Made by a program: the position numbers and the translations under genes | Source of the DNA: Butyrivibrio sp. | GTDB taxonomy: Bacteria; Bacillota; Clostridia; Lachnospirales; Lachnospiraceae | NCBI GenBank assembly: GCA_017535785.1 | Contig: JAFXTN010000031.1 | Span: forward strand, 1-59,940 | Length of the DNA: 59,940 nt | Direction of reading: 5' to 3' | In this document: piece by piece, positions 13,424 to 22,616 of the stretch | Numbering within the stretch: position 1 is the first letter of the stretch | Layout: each line of letters opens with the position of its first letter | The notes under the pieces: generated by a model | The model's database searches: none | What the model was told of the DNA's origin: nothing | The model's input: only the letters and a program-made list of their open reading frames with translations

Positions 13424-14209
13424 TCAAACCAGCTTCGATTTAAGCTCTTTTAACTTTTCCTTCTTATCATCCGCCCTCATAAGCGTCTCGCCGACAAGCA
13501 CCGCATCCGCGCCGATCTCGGAAAGCTTTTGTACATCTTCCGCAGACTTTACACCGCTCTCAGAAACAAAGATCACATCATCGGGGATAATGCTTCTGAG
13601 CTTTGCGCTGTTTCCGGTATCAACGGTAAAGTCCTTGAGATTTCTGTTGTTTACACCGATGATCCTTGCGCCTGCTGCGACAGCAACCTTAACTTCTTCC
13701 TCGTCATGAGCTTCGACAAGAGCCGATAAGCCAAGCTCATCGCAGATACCAAGGTACTCTTTTATCTGCTCGGGACTTAATATGGAACAGATCAAAAGAA
13801 CTGCCGAAGCGCCGAGGATCTTGGCCTCGTATATCATGTACTCGCTCACGGTAAAGTCTTTTCTAAGGCAGGGGATTGACACATTTGCCGCTATTTCCTT
13901 AAGGTAATCATCCTTTCCGAGGAACCACTTGGGCTCAGTCAATACCGATATGCAATCGGCTCCCGCCTTATCATACTCTTTTGCTATATTAAGATAATCG
14001 AATTCTTCCGCAATGACGCCCTTTGAAGGTGAAGCCTTTTTGCATTCACAGATAAAAGAGATTCCAGGTTTTTTAAGACTCTTTTCAAAAGAAAAATCTC
14101 CCTTCGGAAGCTCATAAGCTCTTTTCTTAAGCTCTTCCAAAGATACTTTTTTCTCTGCCTCTTTTACACGCTCCTTGGCGTATGCGGCAATTTCATCAAG
14201 AATTGTCAT
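13424..14209 (-). CDS. trpC: Indole-3-glycerol phosphate synthase
   Basis: 261 residues, TIM-barrel decarboxylating cyclase of tryptophan synthesis. Visible motifs: [15 protein letters not shown] (catalytic Glu and Lys), [37 protein letters not shown] and [10 protein letters not shown]. It starts inside the end of trpD (ATGA overlap). A monofunctional form, with trpF downstream. Confidence 0.96.
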
Positions 14210-15222
14210 CTGTTACTTACCTCTATGATCTTACCGAGTGTCTCAAGTGCCTTGCCTGAATCAATAAGCTCTGCAGCAAGATCCACACCTGCTTTGATAG
14301 AATCAGCCTTTCCACCGATGTAAAGAGCCGCACCTGCGTTCATAAGAACTGCATCACGCTTGGGCCCTTTAACGCCCTTTAATACGTCTTTTGTGATCTC
14401 TGCGTTCTCTTCGGGTGTTCCGCCGACAAGATCTTCTTTTGAACACATATTAAGTCCGAAATCAGAAGGCTTGATAACATATGATTTATACCATCCGTCG
14501 TTGATCTCGCAAACGGTTGTGGGTGAGCTCATTGAAATCTCATCGAGCTTATCCTGTCCGTATACGACCATTCCTCTCTTAACGCCGAGGCTTACAAGAA
14601 CTCTTGCAAGAGGCTCAACGAGGTACTCATCGTATACGCCGAGAAGGAAGAGCTTGGGTGAGCTTGGATTTGTAAGAGGTCCCAAAATGTTGAACACTGT
14701 TCTGAAGCCGAGCTCTTTTCTGATAGGTCCTACATACTTCATTGATGTGTGATACTTCTGAGCAAAGAAAAAGCACATTCCTGCTTCCTTAAGAAGCTCT
14801 ATGCATTTCTCGGGCTCCTGCTGGATGTTTACTCCGAGAGCTTCGAGGCAATCAGCTGTTCCGCACTTTGAAGAAGCTGCTCTGTTTCCGTGCTTGGCAA
14901 CCTTCATTCCACCTGCTGCAGCGACGATAGCTGATGTTGTTGAGATATTGAAGCTGTGTGCGTTGTCTCCGCCTGTTCCTACGATCTCGAACACGTCCAT
15001 ATCTGTCTCGACTTTGGTTGCATGCTCTCTCATAGCAGTTGCACAGCCTGCGATCTCATCTGTGGTCTCTGCCTTTGCACTCTTTGTTGAAAGAGCTGCA
15101 AGGAAAGCCGCATTCTGTGTGGGAGTTGTCTCTCCTCCCATGATCTCATTCATAACTGCATATGCTTCATCATATGTGAGGTCTTCTTTGTTTACGATTT
15201 TTACGATTGCTTCTTTGATCAT
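14206..15222 (-). CDS. trpD: Anthranilate phosphoribosyltransferase
   Basis: 338 residues. It transfers phosphoribose from PRPP to anthranilate. Key motifs: the PRPP loop [14 protein letters not shown] (about residue 82), [21 protein letters not shown], and [21 protein letters not shown]. It begins 4 bases after the trpG stop and overlaps trpC. It is a stand-alone enzyme, not fused to trpG. Confidence 0.97.
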
Positions 15223-15226
15223 GGTC

Positions 15227-15796
15227 TTATTCTCCTTTAATAAAACTTCTTAGCATATTTTTACCATCCAAAGTCATGATAGATTCGGGATGAAACTGTA
15301 CTCCGTAAATAGGATATTCCTTGTGCTGCACCGCCATTATCTCGCCATCGTCCGTAACAGCCGTGATCTTAAGGCAATCGGGCATTGTGCTCGCATCCGC
15401 CGCAAGTGAATGATATCTTGCAACCTTTGCTTCCTTGGGACAATTCTTAAAGAGCTCGCATGAATTGTCGAATGTGACCGTTGACTGTTTGCCGTGCATC
15501 AGCTCTTTTGCATAAGTAATTACCGCACCATATGCCATGCAGATCGCCTGATGGCCGAGGCACACACCAAGTGTCGGGATCTCTTTTCCCAAAGTCTTGG
15601 CAACCTCTACTATGATCCCTGCATCCTCCGGCCTTCCGGGTCCCGGTGAAAGGATGATCCTGTCGGGCTTAAGTGCTCTGATCTCATCGATCGTCATCTC
15701 ATCGTTACGGATGACTTTTATGTCGGGGTCTATCTCTCCGACGTACTGAAAGAGGTTATAAGAAAAGCTGTCGTAATTGTCTATAAGTAATATCAT
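15227..15796 (-). CDS. trpG: Anthranilate synthase glutamine amidotransferase subunit
   Basis: 189 residues, class I glutamine amidotransferase that supplies ammonia to TrpE. The catalytic Cys79 lies in GVCLGHQAI, and His/Glu lie in QFHPESI near residue 168. The N terminus [18 protein letters not shown] is typical of TrpG/PabA. Since it lies between trpE and trpD the tryptophan role is clear, but in genomes with one copy it may also serve folate synthesis (PabA). It overlaps trpE by 4 bases (ATGA). Confidence 0.96.
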
Positions 15797-17259
15797 TCTT
15801 CCACCTCCTGTGCCATCTCAAGTGCCTTGAGTGAAGCTCTTGCTTTATTAAGGCACTCCGTATATTCCTTGTGGGGATCGGAGTCTGCAACGATTCCGGC
15901 GCCGCTTCTTACAAATACCGTTCCGTTCTTCTTGTAGGCAAGTCTTATTGCGATGCAAGTGTCCATATTTCCCGCAAAATCGATATATCCGATCGCTCCG
16001 CCGTAAATTCCTCGCTTGTTGTTTTCAAGCTCTCCTATGAGCTTGCAGGCCTTGATCTTGGGTGCTCCCGAAAGAGTTCCCGCAGGAAGGATCGCATCTA
16101 TCGCATCAAATGCATCTTTTCCCTCCTTGATCTTTCCTCGCACTGTAGATCCGATGTGCATTACATGTGAGAATCTGAGGATATCGTGAAGGCTCTCAAC
16201 TTCTACTGAGCCAAACTCGCTTATCTTTCCGATGTCGTTTCTTCCAAGGTCCACAAGCATGTTGTGCTCGGCAAGCTCTTTTTCGTCAACCAGGAGCTCT
16301 TTTTCCAGGGCCTTGTCCTCTTCCTCGGTCTTGCCCCTTGGCCTTGTGCCTGCAAGAGGGAAGGTATGAAGAATGCCGTCCTCAAGCTTAACGAGCGTCT
16401 CAGGTGATGCTCCCGCAACCTCAACATCGGTTCCTGCAAAGTAGAACATATAAGGTGAAGGATTTATCGTTCTGAACATGCGGTATGCGTTTAATAAGCT
16501 TCCTTCGTAAGGAGCTGATAATCTGTTTGAAAGGACTATCTGGAAGATATCGCCTTCCTTGATGTGATCCTTACCCTTTTCGACCATCTCACAGTACTCT
16601 TCCTCAGAAAAAAGAGCTGTGACCTCGCCTGTAAGTCTTCCGTGGTCGTCCTTTTTCTTCTCGCCCTTCTCTATGAGAAGCTTCATCTGTCTGAGCTCTG
16701 TGACTGCTCTGTTGTAGCCGCTCTCTCCGTCTGTAGCCTTCATGTTGACTATAAGAACTATTTTCTGTCTTACGTTGTCGAAGGCGATAACCTTATCGAA
16801 GAGCATCAGATCTATGTCCTTGAAAGCATCCGAGTCCTCAACGGGGCTCTTGGCTGTAGGCTCGCAGTATCCAAAGTAATCAAATGCGAAATATCCAACA
16901 AGTCCGCCTGTGAAGGATGGAAGATTCTCAAATCTTGGGCTCCTGTGTTCAGCCATGATCTCGCGAAGGTACTGAGCGGGCTTATCTGTCTTTACAGTCT
17001 TGCCTCCAATCTGCATCTCGCCGTCCTTGCAGGTGATCTCAAGCTTTGGATCGTAACCAAGGAATGTATAGCGTCCCCAAGTCTCATCCGCCTGTGCAGA
17101 TTCAAGCATGTAGCAGTGCTCAGATACGTTCCTAAGCTTCCTCATGGTCTCTATCGGTGTTATGAAGTCCGATAAGATTTCCATGCTGACAGGGATCACA
17201 TCATATTTCTGCGTTGCTGCGATTTTCTTTACTTCTTCAAGTGACGGTGTGATGTTCAT
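15793..17259 (-). CDS. trpE: Anthranilate synthase component I
   Basis: 488 residues. It converts chorismate to anthranilate with ammonia from TrpG. The N-terminal tryptophan-binding segment reads [18 protein letters not shown], close to the LLES motif needed for feedback inhibition. Chorismate-site motifs include [27 protein letters not shown] and the C-terminal [19 protein letters not shown]. It is the first gene of the operon, with RBS AAAGGAA before the ATG and the T-box leader and promoter directly upstream. Confidence 0.97.
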
Positions 17260-17293: not shown

Positions 17294-17328
17294 TAAAAGC
17301 CCCTGATAGAACTACTATAGTTCTATCA
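17294..17328 (-). terminator. T-box-controlled terminator before trpE
   Basis: Reverse-strand hairpin TGATAGAAC-TATAGTA-GTTCTATCA (arms 17320-17328 and 17304-17312) followed by GGGGCTTTTATTTT. It lies about 35 bases from the trpE start and just after the T-box antiterminator sequence, so it is the regulated stop in the leader. Confidence 0.88.
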
Positions 17329-17600
17329 AGGACGAATATACTTTATCCGCGGTGCCACCTTGATTTCATGGTTTCCATGCGCTTAGCGAGATACCAACAT
17401 ATCTCCGGCAACTGACGTATGCCTTTACGTTGTGGAATACTCGGTAAGATAAATCAGAAGATTTCCTATCTTGCTTTTTGATCCACACCCTCAGCGGTCC
17501 ATTTGACAACTTGTTTCATGCTCGGCTCTCAGCATCCCGGGCTCTCTGTGTTGGCATCATTGCCGTTATCTCCGCTTCAACGGTTTATAATTATTCACTT
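17294..17600 (-). ncRNA. Tryptophan T-box riboswitch leader
   Basis: About 300-base leader between the promoter and trpE. The T-box signature AAGGTGGCACCGCGG lies at 17347-17361; its GGTGGCACC part holds the bulge that pairs with the acceptor end of uncharged tRNA. Stem I begins around 17580. The specifier is read as TGG (17499-17501) followed by A, within AAATGGACCGC, where CCGC can close on the GCGG of the 5' arm near 17571-17574. TGG is the Trp codon, matching the operon. Uncharged tRNA-Trp should stabilise the antiterminator against the hairpin at 17304-17328, turning the operon on in Trp limitation. The family and output are clear; the exact stem I fold was not computed. Confidence 0.92.
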
Positions 17601-19354: not shown

Positions 19355-19385
19355 TTTCTTTTCCTCCGATTTTGTTTTTTGATTT

Positions 19386-19420
19386 TCGACCTCGAATCTG
19401 ATTTTTGTTTTCGAGCTCGA
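19386..19420. repeat. Imperfect inverted repeat upstream of the XRE gene
   Basis: TCGACCTCGAA (19386-19396) and TTCGAGCTCGA (19410-19420) form an 11-bp dyad with one mismatch around a 13-base spacer. It lies 31 bases before the XRE start, in the transcribed leader, so it could be an operator or an RNA hairpin. Surrounding bases are a T-rich low-complexity stretch. Confidence 0.5.
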
Positions 19421-19461
19421 TGTGTTTTTTGTTTTTGGATGATCTTAGCTTACAAAAATGA

Positions 19462-19583: not shown

Positions 19584-20618
19584 TCACTGCCAAGTGAATT
19601 TTACCATTTTCCGATCGGATGTATCAACTACAGCTTCCACCCCAAAAGGAATTATACAGCGTGGAAGCGCGTGTCCGATATTGATGTTGCAAACAATCGG
19701 AAGGCTCTCGTTTGCTATTACTTCCTTAAGCACCTGCTTGTATTCAGCCTCATATTTCCTGTCCATCGGCTTTCCCACAAGAACTCCGCTTATTACATCG
19801 AAGACTCCATAGTCCTTTAGATACTGCAAAGCAGCGCGATATTTCTCCGGCGCAGGCTGCTCCTCACTTGATTCAAGCAAAAGAATCTTTCCCTTCCAAT
19901 CTTCTTTTGAAGGAAAAAGCTCATATTTGCTGCAAAGAACAGGCATATCCGCATATCGCTCCCCGTTGAAAATATCATATATGGAATCGATGCATCCGCC
20001 TAATATCTCCCCGGCAAAAGAGCTTTCTCCCTGCAATAGTTCAAAGCCGTTATCTTCATGCTTTGGAAGCGCCGTTCCCATCTGATCAAGGTCAAAATTT
20101 GTTCTGCTCTCATACCAGACATCGCTTGGCGTGATCTCTTTTATCTTACCTGTTGTTATCAGCTCTGTGAAATACTTCTTGGTATAGGGCAAAATATCTT
20201 TGTCCATCTCGCATATATCTGCAAGGAATGACTGTCCGTAGAAGCTCTTTACGCCGACTTTGTGCAGCATAAAATGATTGATAGTCGTATCTGAAAAGCC
20301 AAGGAAAAGCTTGTCATTTACCGCTTTCTTAAGCTCATCGTTCTCGAAAAGAAACGGTAACAGGCGATATGTATCATCACCGCCTATAGCGCAAAGAATC
20401 ATGTCTATCTCAGGATCTTTGTAAGCTGCAATGAGATCCTCCGCGCGCTTTTCGGGATGAGCTTCCAAATATTCTATTCCTTTGAGGGCATTTGGCATGA
20501 ACTTCACTTTAAGTCCCATTTCTTCAAGGCGCTTTGTCCCAAGCTCCACCTCATGCTTTACAAAATCTTCTCCTATAGTTCCCCGTGAGAGGCTCACAAT
20601 TCCTACTGTTTTGACCAT
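19584..20618 (-). CDS. S66-family serine peptidase (MccF / LD-carboxypeptidase-like)
   Basis: 344 residues. The S66 fold is shown by nucleophile Ser109 in FLGFSDTT, Glu249 in ILLLESSEE and His316 in NINIGHALPR. The stretch AIGGDDTYRLLPFL is closer to the MccF subgroup than to LD-carboxypeptidases, which carry RGGYG at this point; a Trp at residue 168 (DVWYES) could correspond to the substrate-stacking loop of MccF. MccF enzymes cut peptide-nucleotide (microcin C-like) toxins, while LD-carboxypeptidases recycle murein peptides. The start overlaps the end of the GNAT gene by one base, so the two are co-translated. MccF-like activity is inference from motif and partner. Confidence 0.82.
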   Translation of the reverse strand: MVKTVGIVSLSRGTIGEDFVKHEVELGTKRLEEMGLKVKFMPNALKGIEYLEAHPEKRAEDLIAAYKDPEIDMILCAIGGDDTYRLLPFLFENDELKKAVNDKLFLGFSDTTINHFMLHKVGVKSFYGQSFLADICEMDKDILPYTKKYFTELITTGKIKEITPSDVWYESRTNFDLDQMGTALPKHEDNGFELLQGESSFAGEILGGCIDSIYDIFNGERYADMPVLCSKYELFPSKEDWKGKILLLESSEEQPAPEKYRAALQYLKDYGVFDVISGVLVGKPMDRKYEAEYKQVLKEVIANESLPIVCNINIGHALPRCIIPFGVEAVVDTSDRKMVKFTWQ

Positions 20619-21169
20619 TAATTAAGCTCCTTTACCATGCAAACTTCATCGATATATCTCCCGTCCTTTAACTTAAAAGCTTTGTGAAGTCTTCCGTATT
20701 CTTTAAAGCCCATCTTTTTATAAAGGGCAAGCGCTCTTTCATTGTCCGCAAATGCCCCAAGCTCCATCTGCTCAAAGCCCATTTCTTTTGCCTGCTTAAC
20801 TGCTCTGTCTATAAGAATTCCGCCAAGGCCGGCACCGCAAAACTCCTGAAAAAGAGCTATCGCGAAATTGCAGCGGTGTTTAAGCTTATAATTGTTCCTA
20901 TTTCGATAAACACAAACGTTGCCTACAGCTCTGTCTTTGTCAAAAACAGTAAGGAACACCGAACCGTCATCATTGAGGTTTTCGTTTATGATCCTCTTCT
21001 CATCTTCAAGATCGTCATCAACCTCTTCGGGATATCTGATCATATAATGCGTCTCTTCCGCTATCTTGTATATATACTCAAGCATCGTCTCGGCATCTTT
21101 TTCCTCGGCGCTTCTGATCGTAAGCTTGCGCCCGTCCCTAAGTGTTATTTCTTCCGCTTCATACTTCAT
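20618..21169 (-). CDS. GNAT-family N-acetyltransferase
   Basis: 183 residues. Acetyl-CoA-binding motif A reads FCGAGLGGILIDRAVKQA near residue 115, followed by NERALALYKKMGFKEYG, typical of GNAT enzymes acting on amino groups of small molecules or protein N termini. RBS GGAGGTT lies between the ATG and a 12-bp terminator hairpin only about 20 bases upstream, in a leader of about 210 bases with its own small reading frame. It is co-translated with the S66 peptidase. In microcin C operons a GNAT domain (MccE) and an S66 peptidase (MccF) give immunity to the same toxin, so a resistance role is an attractive hypothesis; the substrate is not known. Confidence 0.85.
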   Translation of the reverse strand: MKYEAEEITLRDGRKLTIRSAEEKDAETMLEYIYKIAEETHYMIRYPEEVDDDLEDEKRIINENLNDDGSVFLTVFDKDRAVGNVCVYRNRNNYKLKHRCNFAIALFQEFCGAGLGGILIDRAVKQAKEMGFEQMELGAFADNERALALYKKMGFKEYGRLHKAFKLKDGRYIDEVCMVKELN

Positions 21170-21180
21170 AAAAAACCTCC

Positions 21181-21218
21181 TTAAAAAGCCTCATCAAACC
21201 GGTAAAGTTTGATGAGGC
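21181..21218 (-). terminator. Attenuator terminator before the GNAT-S66 operon
   Basis: Reverse-strand 12-bp perfect stem GCCTCATCAAAC (21207-21218) with GTTTGATGAGGC (21188-21199), loop of 7, followed by TTTTT. The 5' arm is also complementary to TTTGATGAGG upstream in the leader (21267-21276), which provides an alternative pairing. Seen directly. Confidence 0.85.
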
Positions 21219-21276
21219 CATATATCAATAATCATGTGCAGTTAAAATATTTCTCAGATATGCACATCCTCATCAA
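21219..21276 (-). promoter_or_regulatory. Antiterminator element of the GNAT-S66 leader
   Basis: TTTGATGAGG (21267-21276) can pair for 10 bp with CCTCATCAAA (21208-21217), the 5' arm of the terminator, which would prevent the terminator from forming. Directly adjoining it, ATGTGCA (21260-21266) can pair with TGCACAT (21233-21239), extending the alternative helix. The first strand overlaps codons 27-29 of the leader frame, so ribosome position could decide which structure forms. Confidence 0.6.
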
Positions 21277-21355
21277 AGTATACAAAATCAGTCCCCTGTG
21301 GATTCACGGGATTGGTAGTGCCTGTTTTGTAATTATTGACGAGTAATAATGCCAT
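21254..21355 (-). CDS. Leader peptide of 33 residues before the GNAT-S66 operon
   Basis: Reading frame of 33 codons and a TGA, starting 34 bases after the -10 box. The peptide begins MALLLVNNYKTG and ends VYFDEDVHI. The upstream AAGAAG is a modest ribosome site; an in-frame TAA precedes the ATG. Codons 27-29 and the two following codons form one strand of the antiterminator, so a ribosome reaching the stop would cover it and favour the terminator, while one stalled earlier would leave it free. This is the layout of antibiotic- or amino-acid-responsive attenuators. Three Asp codons lie at positions 23, 28 and 30, three Asn codons at 7, 8 and 15. Translation is not proven. Confidence 0.5.
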   Translation of the reverse strand: MALLLVNNYKTGTTNPVNPQGTDFVYFDEDVHI

Positions 21356-21388
21356 TTCGAATCTTCTTTCTGAAAAATATTAAATCCA

Positions 21389-21417
21389 AGTATAATTGGC
21401 AGACAATTTCATGTCAA
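21389..21417 (-). promoter_or_regulatory. Promoter of the GNAT-S66 operon
   Basis: Reverse-strand TTGACA (21412-21417) and TATACT (21389-21394) with a 17-base spacer. The -35 box overlaps the stop codon of the symporter gene. The start of transcription would be near 21382, giving a leader of about 210 bases. Confidence 0.75.
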
Positions 21418-22616
21418 CCCTTTTTCTTTTCCAAATTTGTGACTACAAGAGCACAGGAAGCATCTCCTGTGATATTAACAGTGGTTCTTCCCATATCAAA
21501 GATCCTGTCGATTCCTGCAACGAGTGCGATACCGTCAACGGGAAGTCCTACAGATGTAAGCACCATCGCAAGCATTACCATGCCCGCGCCGGGAACGCCG
21601 GCTGTACCGATGGATGCAAGCGTTGCTGTAAGAACTATCGTAAGCATCTGCGGGAATGTGAGCTGTACACCGTAACAGGATGCGATGAATATAGCGCATA
21701 CGCCCTGATAGATCGCAGTTCCGTCCATGTTTATCGTTGCGCCGAGAGGCAATACAAATGATGTGATCTCTTTGTCCGCGCCCATCTTCTCGCAGCCCTT
21801 CATGTTGATAGGAAGTGTTCCTACACTTGATGCGCTGGAGAATGCAAAGATCATGGCAGGGAGCTGACCCTTAAAGAATTGAAGCGGACTCATACCGCCC
21901 ATAGTCGCAACTGCCGTGGAATACACGATAACCATGTGAAGTATATAGCAGATATACGCCGCAAGGAGTACCATTGCAAGCGATCCAAGGACCGCACTTC
22001 CGTTTGCCGCAACAACCGGACAGATAAGGCAGAACACACCGATCGGTGAAAGCTTGAGTATCATCTCCATGCACTTCATAAATACCGCATTAAATGAGTT
22101 GATTCCTTTTACAGCAGGCGCAGCTTCTTCTCCGACAAGAATGATAGCAAAGCCGATAAGTATCGCCATTACGATTACCTGAAGCATGGTCGCCTCGGAA
22201 AGCGGCATGATGAAGTTTGAAGGAAAGATATTTACGATGGTATCCATAAATGGGGCACTGCTTGATGCTTCGTAGCTAAGCTCTGAAGTCTGAAGCACGG
22301 GGAAAAATCCCTTGAAGACATTTCCGCCTATAAGACCGATCACTATCGCAACCGCTGTTGTGCACAGATAGTAGATGATGGTCTTGATCCCTATCGATCC
22401 GACTTTTCTTATATCCTGCATGGAGATAACGCCCGCCATGATGGAAAAAAGAACTATCGGAACAACGATAAATTTAACAAGATTGAGGAATATCGTACCG
22501 AACGGCTTGATATAATTCTCCGCTATATCAGCGTGGCTCTGCATAAGAAGTCCCGCAATGATACCGAGAATAAGTGCGATAAAGATCTGAATTGCAAGTG
22601 GTAGTTTTTTCTTCAT
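21414..22616 (-). CDS. Dicarboxylate/amino acid:cation symporter (DAACS family)
   Basis: 400 residues, eight or more membrane segments plus the two re-entrant hairpins of the GltPh fold. Diagnostic motifs: the Ser-rich hairpin FSSASSVGTLPINMKG, the NMDGTAIYQG segment of TM7, and GIDRIFDMGRTTVNITGDA in TM8. The family imports glutamate, aspartate, C4-dicarboxylates or serine/threonine with sodium or protons. The TM8 Arg in the GIDR segment and Asp in MGRTTVN are compatible with an acidic substrate, but specificity cannot be fixed from sequence alone. The gene is monocistronic; an RBS (GGAGGGTTACGG) precedes the ATG. Confidence 0.92.
   Translation of the reverse strand: MKKKLPLAIQIFIALILGIIAGLLMQSHADIAENYIKPFGTIFLNLVKFIVVPIVLFSIMAGVISMQDIRKVGSIGIKTIIYYLCTTAVAIVIGLIGGNVFKGFFPVLQTSELSYEASSSAPFMDTIVNIFPSNFIMPLSEATMLQVIVMAILIGFAIILVGEEAAPAVKGINSFNAVFMKCMEMILKLSPIGVFCLICPVVAANGSAVLGSLAMVLLAAYICYILHMVIVYSTAVATMGGMSPLQFFKGQLPAMIFAFSSASSVGTLPINMKGCEKMGADKEITSFVLPLGATINMDGTAIYQGVCAIFIASCYGVQLTFPQMLTIVLTATLASIGTAGVPGAGMVMLAMVLTSVGLPVDGIALVAGIDRIFDMGRTTVNITGDASCALVVTNLEKKKG

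Follow-up and report, generated by a model that had tools for sequence, protein, structure and literature searches.

The window, i.e. the whole stretch of 59,940 nt from a Butyrivibrio sp. contig analysed here, carries a gene for a GNAT acetyltransferase that is directly followed by a gene for an S66 peptidase. Upstream of this pair, behind an SDF symporter gene, lies a leader region with its own promoter, a short open reading frame and an intrinsic terminator. The positions of these features, together with the segments that are able to pair with each other, are given in Table 1.

Table 1. Features of the leader region and of the adjoining genes in the window
Feature	Position	Strand	Basis or remark
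SDF symporter gene	21414-22616	-	upstream of leader promoter
Promoter, sigma-70-type TTGACA-17-TATACT	21389..21417	-	11/12 consensus matches; overlaps stop of upstream SDF symporter gene
Leader ORF MALLLVNNYKTGTTNPVNPQGTDFVYFDEDVHI	21254..21355	-	33 codons + stop; Asn codons 7, 8, 15, 18
Segment 1 = P1 5' strand CTCGTCAA	21336..21343	-	within codons 5-7; partner of segment 2 in MFE fold
P3 hairpin CCCGTGAATCCACAGGGG	21293..21310	-	internal G.G mismatch; best-conserved sequence between segments 1 and 2
Segment 2 TTTGATGAGG	21268..21277	-	near ORF end; complementary to segment 1 and to segment 3
ATGTGCA, possible 5' arm of 7-bp antiterminator extension	21261..21267	-	complementarity, p = 0.10 vs shuffled spacers
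TGCACAT, possible 3' arm of 7-bp antiterminator extension	21234..21240	-	complementarity
Segment 3 = terminator 5' arm GGCCTCATCAAAC	21207..21219	-	RNA fold and alignment
Segment 4 = terminator 3' arm GTTTGATGAGGC	21188..21199	-	RNA fold and alignment
U tract TTTTT	21183..21187	-	directly 3' of terminator 3' arm
GNAT acetyltransferase gene	20618..21169	-	183 aa; Shine-Dalgarno GGAGG directly 3' of terminator
S66 peptidase gene	19584..20618	-	344 aa; start overlaps GNAT stop; nearest MccF/'MccC family' proteins

An earlier note had proposed the promoter, the leader frame and the terminator, and all three are present. The segment TTTGATGAGG exists as well, but it lies one base away from the position named there (21267-21276). 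Among 9 promoter-like sites in 4 kb, where 8.6 are expected from shuffles, this promoter ranks first, and by eye similar promoters precede many homologous leaders. The leader RNA of the window folds with -60.7 kcal/mol compared to -38.7 kcal/mol for shuffled sequences (z -5.6, 0/200 shuffles as low), and the terminator appears in this fold as a 14-bp stem. Its U tract is short (5 U) relative to many homologues, and the output of an automated terminator scan did not contain the terminator of the window. The two mutually exclusive helices of the earlier note, 2:3 and 3:4, can both be formed, but the picture of two helices was incomplete, as a fourth segment, CTCGTCAA in codons 5-7, had been overlooked. 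In the MFE fold the partner of this segment is TTTGATGAG, close to the ORF end. Since segment 1 pairs with segment 2, the complete set is 1:2, 2:3 and 3:4, which is the layout of the trp attenuator. A spacer helix of the ATGTGCA/TGCACAT type was better than 90% of shuffles in only 18 of 42 leaders and is therefore not relied on.

The leader is not tied to the GNAT-S66 pair but is one member of a genus-wide family. Among 79 genomes of the genus we found 17 GNAT orthologues with at least 53% identity, of which by eye eight possess an intact leader, three only promoter and terminator, and six nothing of this kind directly upstream. A search pattern derived from the intact leaders resulted in 23 matches in 19 of the 79 genomes and in none when reversed. 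The matches have lengths of 46, 49 or 52, i.e. they differ in steps that are multiples of three, and all 23 are accompanied by an in-frame ATG 12-18 nt upstream, by GATGRGG 65-72 nt downstream and by a terminator with matching arms. The covariance model R1, built from 15 leaders (alignment A2) and applied with a threshold of E 0.1, gave 84 matches in 45 of the 79 Butyrivibrio genomes. One of them (L172) lies inside a longer frame without segment 2 and was rejected, which leaves 83 credible leaders, the highest number in one genome being 6. In 83/83 of these the leader ORF stays open across segment 2, which suggests that it is translated, and P3 stands in the same frame in 82/82 leaders readable by the search expression (all but L158). 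A simple scan detected the terminator in 74 of the 83 leaders and inspection by eye added four (L101, L115, L116, L149), while it is wholly or partly missing in L089, L112, L137, L155 and L159. L089 (G000:C29:7850-7946) is a second copy in the genome of the window; it contains Asn (MQYLRLINTKPSNNTKPVTNEQG), lacks the 3' arm of the terminator, and a GNAT-like frame starts approximately 660 nt downstream of it.

Within a sample of 397 genomes from the whole bacterial family, two of them from the genus of the window, R1 matched in 12 genomes, and the model R2, which was aimed at further synthetase-linked leaders, in 10, nine of them shared with R1. The search pattern gave three matches besides the window leader in these 397 genomes (40, 40 and 50 nt), which we judged by eye to be due to chance because the other parts of a leader were not seen around them; the model match L187 likewise looks by eye like a chance match. 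Four more distant leaders from other genera of the family (L179, L180, L183, L186) have a Thr-containing core (e.g. SNTVTTQPTKE) and an altered P3, and precede methyltransferase-like and GNAT-like genes, as named by eye. When contigs of 84,980 species were scanned for leaders whose P3 carries three Asn codons, 30 stretches resulted: 28 from Butyrivibrio or Pseudobutyrivibrio, one from an uncultured Lachnospiraceae and one from Marinobacter, the last of which we take as chance.

The genes behind the leaders are of very different types. Taking the first gene of at least 100 aa within 320 nt of each of the 83 leaders, 29 belong to a class of GNAT-methyltransferase fusions, methyltransferases and GNAT halves (the classes are single-linkage clusters, this first one thus being mixed), 24 are window-type GNATs, seven nucleoside phosphorylases, four other GNATs and two a P-loop kinase-like protein, named by eye and without Pfam match. 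Six other genes occur once each, among them AlaRS, MFS and a nucleotidyltransferase-like protein, and 11 of the 83 leaders have no gene of this size within that distance. The family assignment was verified for 11 representatives, of which nine were compared with both libraries. For the nucleotidyltransferase-like protein (behind L165) there was no solved structure at E 0.01. A MATE protein is encoded 531 nt downstream of one leader.

The secondary structure is maintained along with the frame. P1 and P3 are part of the MFE structure of 15/15 leaders folded singly (z -2.4 to -4.8), with a variable P2 between them, and RNAalifold recovers both unprompted. The alignment A3 comprises 42 non-redundant leaders, in which 92.1% of the P1 cells are paired; for P1, P3 and the terminator taken together the value is 96.5%, in contrast to 30-52% when slid by 1-3 columns. 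Changes on both sides of a pair occur in 18 cells compared to 4.9 in shuffles (0/500 as high). There is no excess in these 42 leaders in the number of pairs with a change on both sides (5 vs 3.3, 59/500 shuffles as high) or of pair types (18 vs 17.2, 199/500 as high), and covariation is therefore only modest. The 2:3 helix, with 90.2% of its cells paired versus 17-50% when slid, is supported by complementarity only; its columns are nearly invariant and show no covariation. The alignment of homologous leaders that the earlier note had suggested thus bears out conservation of the coding frame and of the pairing, but modest covariation, and none for the 2:3 helix.

The best-conserved sequence of the leader is P3 (CYCGUGA...UCAGGRG, usually with an internal G.G), which in this respect stands far above P2. 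One could assume that its CGTG...CAGG core with the frequent G.G mismatch is an aptamer, i.e. a riboswitch or a protein site, and that the ORF is secondary. We consider this improbable, since the reading frame of the ORF is preserved without interruption and the G.G position varies among the leaders (G-U in L123; A-U in L151 and L171; A.C in L162; A.G in L102, L109 and L152). Moreover, Rfam searches with the window and the leaders at gathering and relaxed thresholds revealed no credible family, the weak matches (rli33, miRNA, snoRNA) being far under their gathering scores. A simpler guess is that P3, with the T-rich stretch after it, might serve as a pause hairpin and would thereby keep the polymerase synchronized with the ribosome.

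The behavior of the switch was modelled by folding 101 leaders (78 from Butyrivibrio and 23 in front of asnS), each as far as segment 3 and with the footprint of a ribosome placed on one codon after the other; five of 106 leaders were left out, as their set of segments is incomplete. In the simulation without ribosome, the mean probability of the 2:3 helix, P(2:3), is 0.16, with values below 0.5 in 85/101 leaders. It rises to 0.76-0.86 when codons 3-12 occupy the A site and falls to at most 0.07 at codons 27-35, with a second, weaker permissive stretch at codons 23-25 (0.43-0.56) in between. The best stall gives more than 0.5 in 98/101 leaders. For the window leader, P(2:3) is 0.00 when untranslated and 0.00 with the ribosome at the stop codon, 0.85-1.0 with codons 2-13 in the A site, 0.67 at codon 14, 0.25 at codon 15 and 0.58 at codon 22; Asn7 and Asn8 give 0.92 and 0.96. 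An Asn-codon stall in codons 5-15 yields the wanted switch in 67 of the 95 leaders that have such a codon. The predictions are not uniform, as protection of the untranslated leader fails in 16/101 leaders, including L163 and L165, and with the ribosome at the stop codon 8/78 Butyrivibrio leaders and 19/23 asnS leaders are predicted to be open. The asnS leaders are open at this point because their stop codon precedes segment 2, and according to the model such leaders would need a prompt release of the ribosome.

Shuffling the codons of 40 leaders raised the mean P(2:3) of the untranslated RNA from 0.14 to 0.62, the real value being lower in 38/40. This control also bears on another explanation of the locus, namely a plain intergenic terminator of the SDF symporter gene with a chance ORF in front of it. 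Indeed the terminator is located downstream of the symporter gene too, and the three GNAT orthologues of L005, L009 and L012, in which promoter and terminator remain although the leader ORF has been lost, would agree with it. However, in the window the promoter sits between the symporter gene and the terminator, and leader, frame and segments are kept at loci with quite different upstream sequence, so that together with the shuffling result this explanation is very improbable. The existence of an attenuator, whatever its signal, is in contrast well supported, with the modest covariation as its weaker side. The ribosome position as the switch, as the earlier note had supposed, is supported by homologous leaders, the kept frame, the pairing in 42 leaders and the footprint folding. 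In a correction to that note, the untranslated leader is predicted to be off, so that only an early stall would activate the operon.

We regard it as rather probable that the leader of the window is a ribosome-mediated transcription attenuator of the trp/his type, keyed mainly to the charging of Asn-tRNA and reused for resistance-like genes. In the untranslated RNA segment 1 would pair with segment 2, the terminator 3:4 would form and the operon would be off. A ribosome that translates straight through would cover segment 2 and the terminator would form again. A ribosome held at approximately codons 2-14 would block segment 1, segment 2 would capture segment 3 and transcription would continue into the GNAT and S66 genes. 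Asn codons (7 and 8 in the window leader) would be the most likely ones to hold the ribosome, when Asn-tRNA(Asn) runs short by asparagine starvation or by inhibition of AsnRS.

The choice of this signal is suggested by the codon content of the family. In 46 non-redundant Butyrivibrio leaders, Asn accounts for 193 of 879 residues (22.0%) before the conserved Gln and for 35 of 668 (5.2%) after it, compared to a background of 4.3%, as measured on 52 long frames from the window, i.e. the leaders reach 5.1x background. The share drops to background past those codons at which a simulated stall releases segment 2. Read in frame, 194 of 864 codons of 45 leaders (22.5%) encode Asn, and in the other two frames the values are 2.8% and 4.5%; since these frames have no Asn excess, the bias is in the codons and not in the base composition. 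We also rejected the idea that it merely reflects an AT-rich loop sequence, since Lys, Tyr and Ile are not enriched and the other frames are poor in AAY triplets.

The second line of evidence comes from Pseudobutyrivibrio, where one R1 match outside Butyrivibrio, with the leader MAFTSMLNNLNNNNNNSVNNNQGI, lies upstream of asnS. The search for the asnS gene gave a match in 27/29 Pseudobutyrivibrio genomes, and R2 matches in 25/29. In 24 of the 26 loci read there, asnS is preceded by a leader that agrees in P3, segments and terminator; L197 is cut by the contig end, and L207 and L209 have no leader. An asnA-like gene comes next after asnS in 12/19 asnS loci; the asnS and asnA gene families were checked for L274. 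In G483, which matches the Butyrivibrio fibrisolvens 16/4 record, asnS has the leader, and another copy precedes a GNAT-methyltransferase gene. No such leader was found at the 30 Butyrivibrio asnS loci read. In four Pseudobutyrivibrio loci (L195, L201, L202, L203), hairpin-rich, repeat-like insertions lie between the terminator of the leader and asnS.

No control amino acid is universal in this family. Some leaders have a single Asn or none at all; 11 of the 46 non-redundant leaders have fewer than three Asn, and some are Thr-rich. It is possible, although we would not bet on it, that the leaders share one attenuator but sense different amino acids (Thr, Ala, Asp or Asn) and that the leader of the window responds to Leu or Thr. 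It contains LLL and four Thr, and stalls at Leu3-5 (0.99-1.0) and at Thr11, 13 and 14 (0.67-0.97) are also permissive in the model. The leader of L165 has 8 Thr. The Ala-rich leader SIAANARPVNAQG (L163) precedes a short AlaRS (NCBIfam PRK01584) that was found in 1/79 genomes at E 1e-200, the same genome also having a full-length AlaRS frame of 893 codons; in a different genome, a near-identical leader (L161) is followed by an MFS gene. These two leaders have 4 Ala, compared to at most 2 in other leaders. In two Pseudobutyrivibrio leaders (L317, L318) Asp codons occur three times (LTLVDSMNKDSKPVDMKQG); the genes that follow were named by eye as methyltransferase-like and GNAT-like. Against this stands that Asn is the sole residue enriched more than about twofold across the family as a whole, and Asn as the signal of the window leader itself is thus a choice suggested by its relatives.

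The trp, his, thr and leu leaders are ribosome-mediated amino acid attenuators. The Butyrivibrio family shares with them the leader ORF with control codons, the 1:2 / 2:3 / 3:4 segments, the intrinsic terminator and a synthetase gene among the targets, but differs in Asn as the main control residue, in the conserved P3 hairpin, in its up to six copies per genome and in the occurrence of one family before many unrelated, resistance-like genes. A Firmicutes precedent is described in PMC2965389, according to which His leader peptides precede hisS/hisZ in bacilli. The working principle is that of these attenuators, and the differences are the control mainly by Asn, the dispersal before unrelated genes and the place before resistance-like genes. 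As the earlier note had presumed, no leader of this type turned up: neither Rfam nor our searches of an open-access library revealed the element.

In Firmicutes, synthetase genes are commonly controlled by T-boxes, with asnS in few species only according to PMC2494555. Like the leader presented here, a T-box senses tRNA charging via the choice between terminator and antiterminator. RF00230 did not match the window leader or six loci, three of them with asnS leaders. A T-box lies elsewhere in the window (17325-17589, minus strand; RF00230, 78.6 bits with a gathering score of 93, E 2e-17), in front of trpE-trpG-trpD-trpC-like genes at 13424-17259. The genome of the window hence has a T-box at the trp operon versus a leader peptide at the GNAT-S66 operon.

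The earlier note had left open whether the attenuator responds to an antibiotic or to an amino acid. Short leaders that are induced by antibiotics, like that of yxjB, which is reportedly induced by tylosin, resemble the present family in having a short uORF before resistance-like genes, and in both, early stalls would switch. Further such attenuators are vmlR, cplR and toiL, as described in PMC12121999. It might therefore be a ribosome-targeting drug that stalls the first leader codons and induces resistance genes, as in the vmlR or tylosin-induced leaders, and not a shortage of tRNA. The downstream genes (GNATs, methyltransferases, a nucleotidyltransferase-like protein, an MFS transporter and a MATE protein) look like resistance genes. 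In the Butyrivibrio leaders segment 2 is likewise released by stalls at codons 2-5 (mean 0.75-0.90), any stall in codons 2-14 would work in the model of the window leader, and the toiL leader of E. coli responds to several drugs, as stated in PMC12121999. However, there is no conserved arrest peptide near the start, residues 2-5 vary widely between groups, and the asnS leaders respond weakly to stalls at codons 2-5 (0.29-0.46) but strongly at codons 6-9 (0.85-0.96). Since a drug would also leave the frame-specific Asn bias and the homologous element before asnS unexplained, we consider this reading unlikely, and a shortage of Asn-tRNA fits better.

If the attenuator is keyed to Asn-tRNA charging, the question arises why it precedes such genes. 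The element is common to Butyrivibrio and Pseudobutyrivibrio, where it would control asnS, with asnA next to it, in Pseudobutyrivibrio, and the Butyrivibrio copies stand before acetyltransferases, methyltransferases, nucleosidases and an MccF-like peptidase that might plausibly detoxify blockers of aminoacyl-tRNA synthesis. We put forward this detoxifying role as a hypothesis. A GNAT and an MccF-like peptidase under a switch that follows tRNA charging would fit the detoxification of a synthetase poison. MccE2-type GNATs and MccF confer immunity to microcin C, a poison of AspRS, according to PMC9239234. In the window an acetyltransferase likewise adjoins an S66 peptidase that by sequence is nearest to MccF-type proteins; its best match is 4e94_A ('MccC family protein') at E 9e-145, chains named MccF follow at E 2e-15 to 2e-19, and the NCBIfam model for muramoyltetrapeptide carboxypeptidase matches below its cut-off. 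In contrast, the GNAT of the window lacks sequence closeness to MccE chains, none of its 20 PDB matches at E 1e-5 being named MccE.

More tentatively, the Butyrivibrio copies might form a dispersed regulon of tRNA-charging attenuators that senses the poisoning of an aminoacyl-tRNA synthetase. Its enzymes would acetylate, hydrolyse (the MccF-like peptidase), methylate or deglycosylate an aminoacyl-nucleotide inhibitor, and the control codons would match the target, i.e. mostly Asn, and Ala before the spare AlaRS; this goes further than the preceding reading, and we hold it for possible but not likely. If the proposed mechanism is true, it would represent, for Firmicutes, a leader-peptide attenuator with asparagine as its signal, of which our searches of an open-access library showed none, and it would show that a sensor of tRNA charging has been copied in front of resistance-like genes. 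The leader codons would then name the synthetase whose inhibitor is fought, which would open a route to the purpose of uncharacterised GNATs, methyltransferases and MccF-like peptidases in rumen bacteria, and the rumen may be a place to look for nucleotide antibiotics directed against AsnRS or AlaRS.

A minor observation concerns the region behind the operon. Between the S66 gene and an HTH gene, the minus strand of the window contains an A-rich near-repeat stretch (19380-19450), and a similar one is present in L009.
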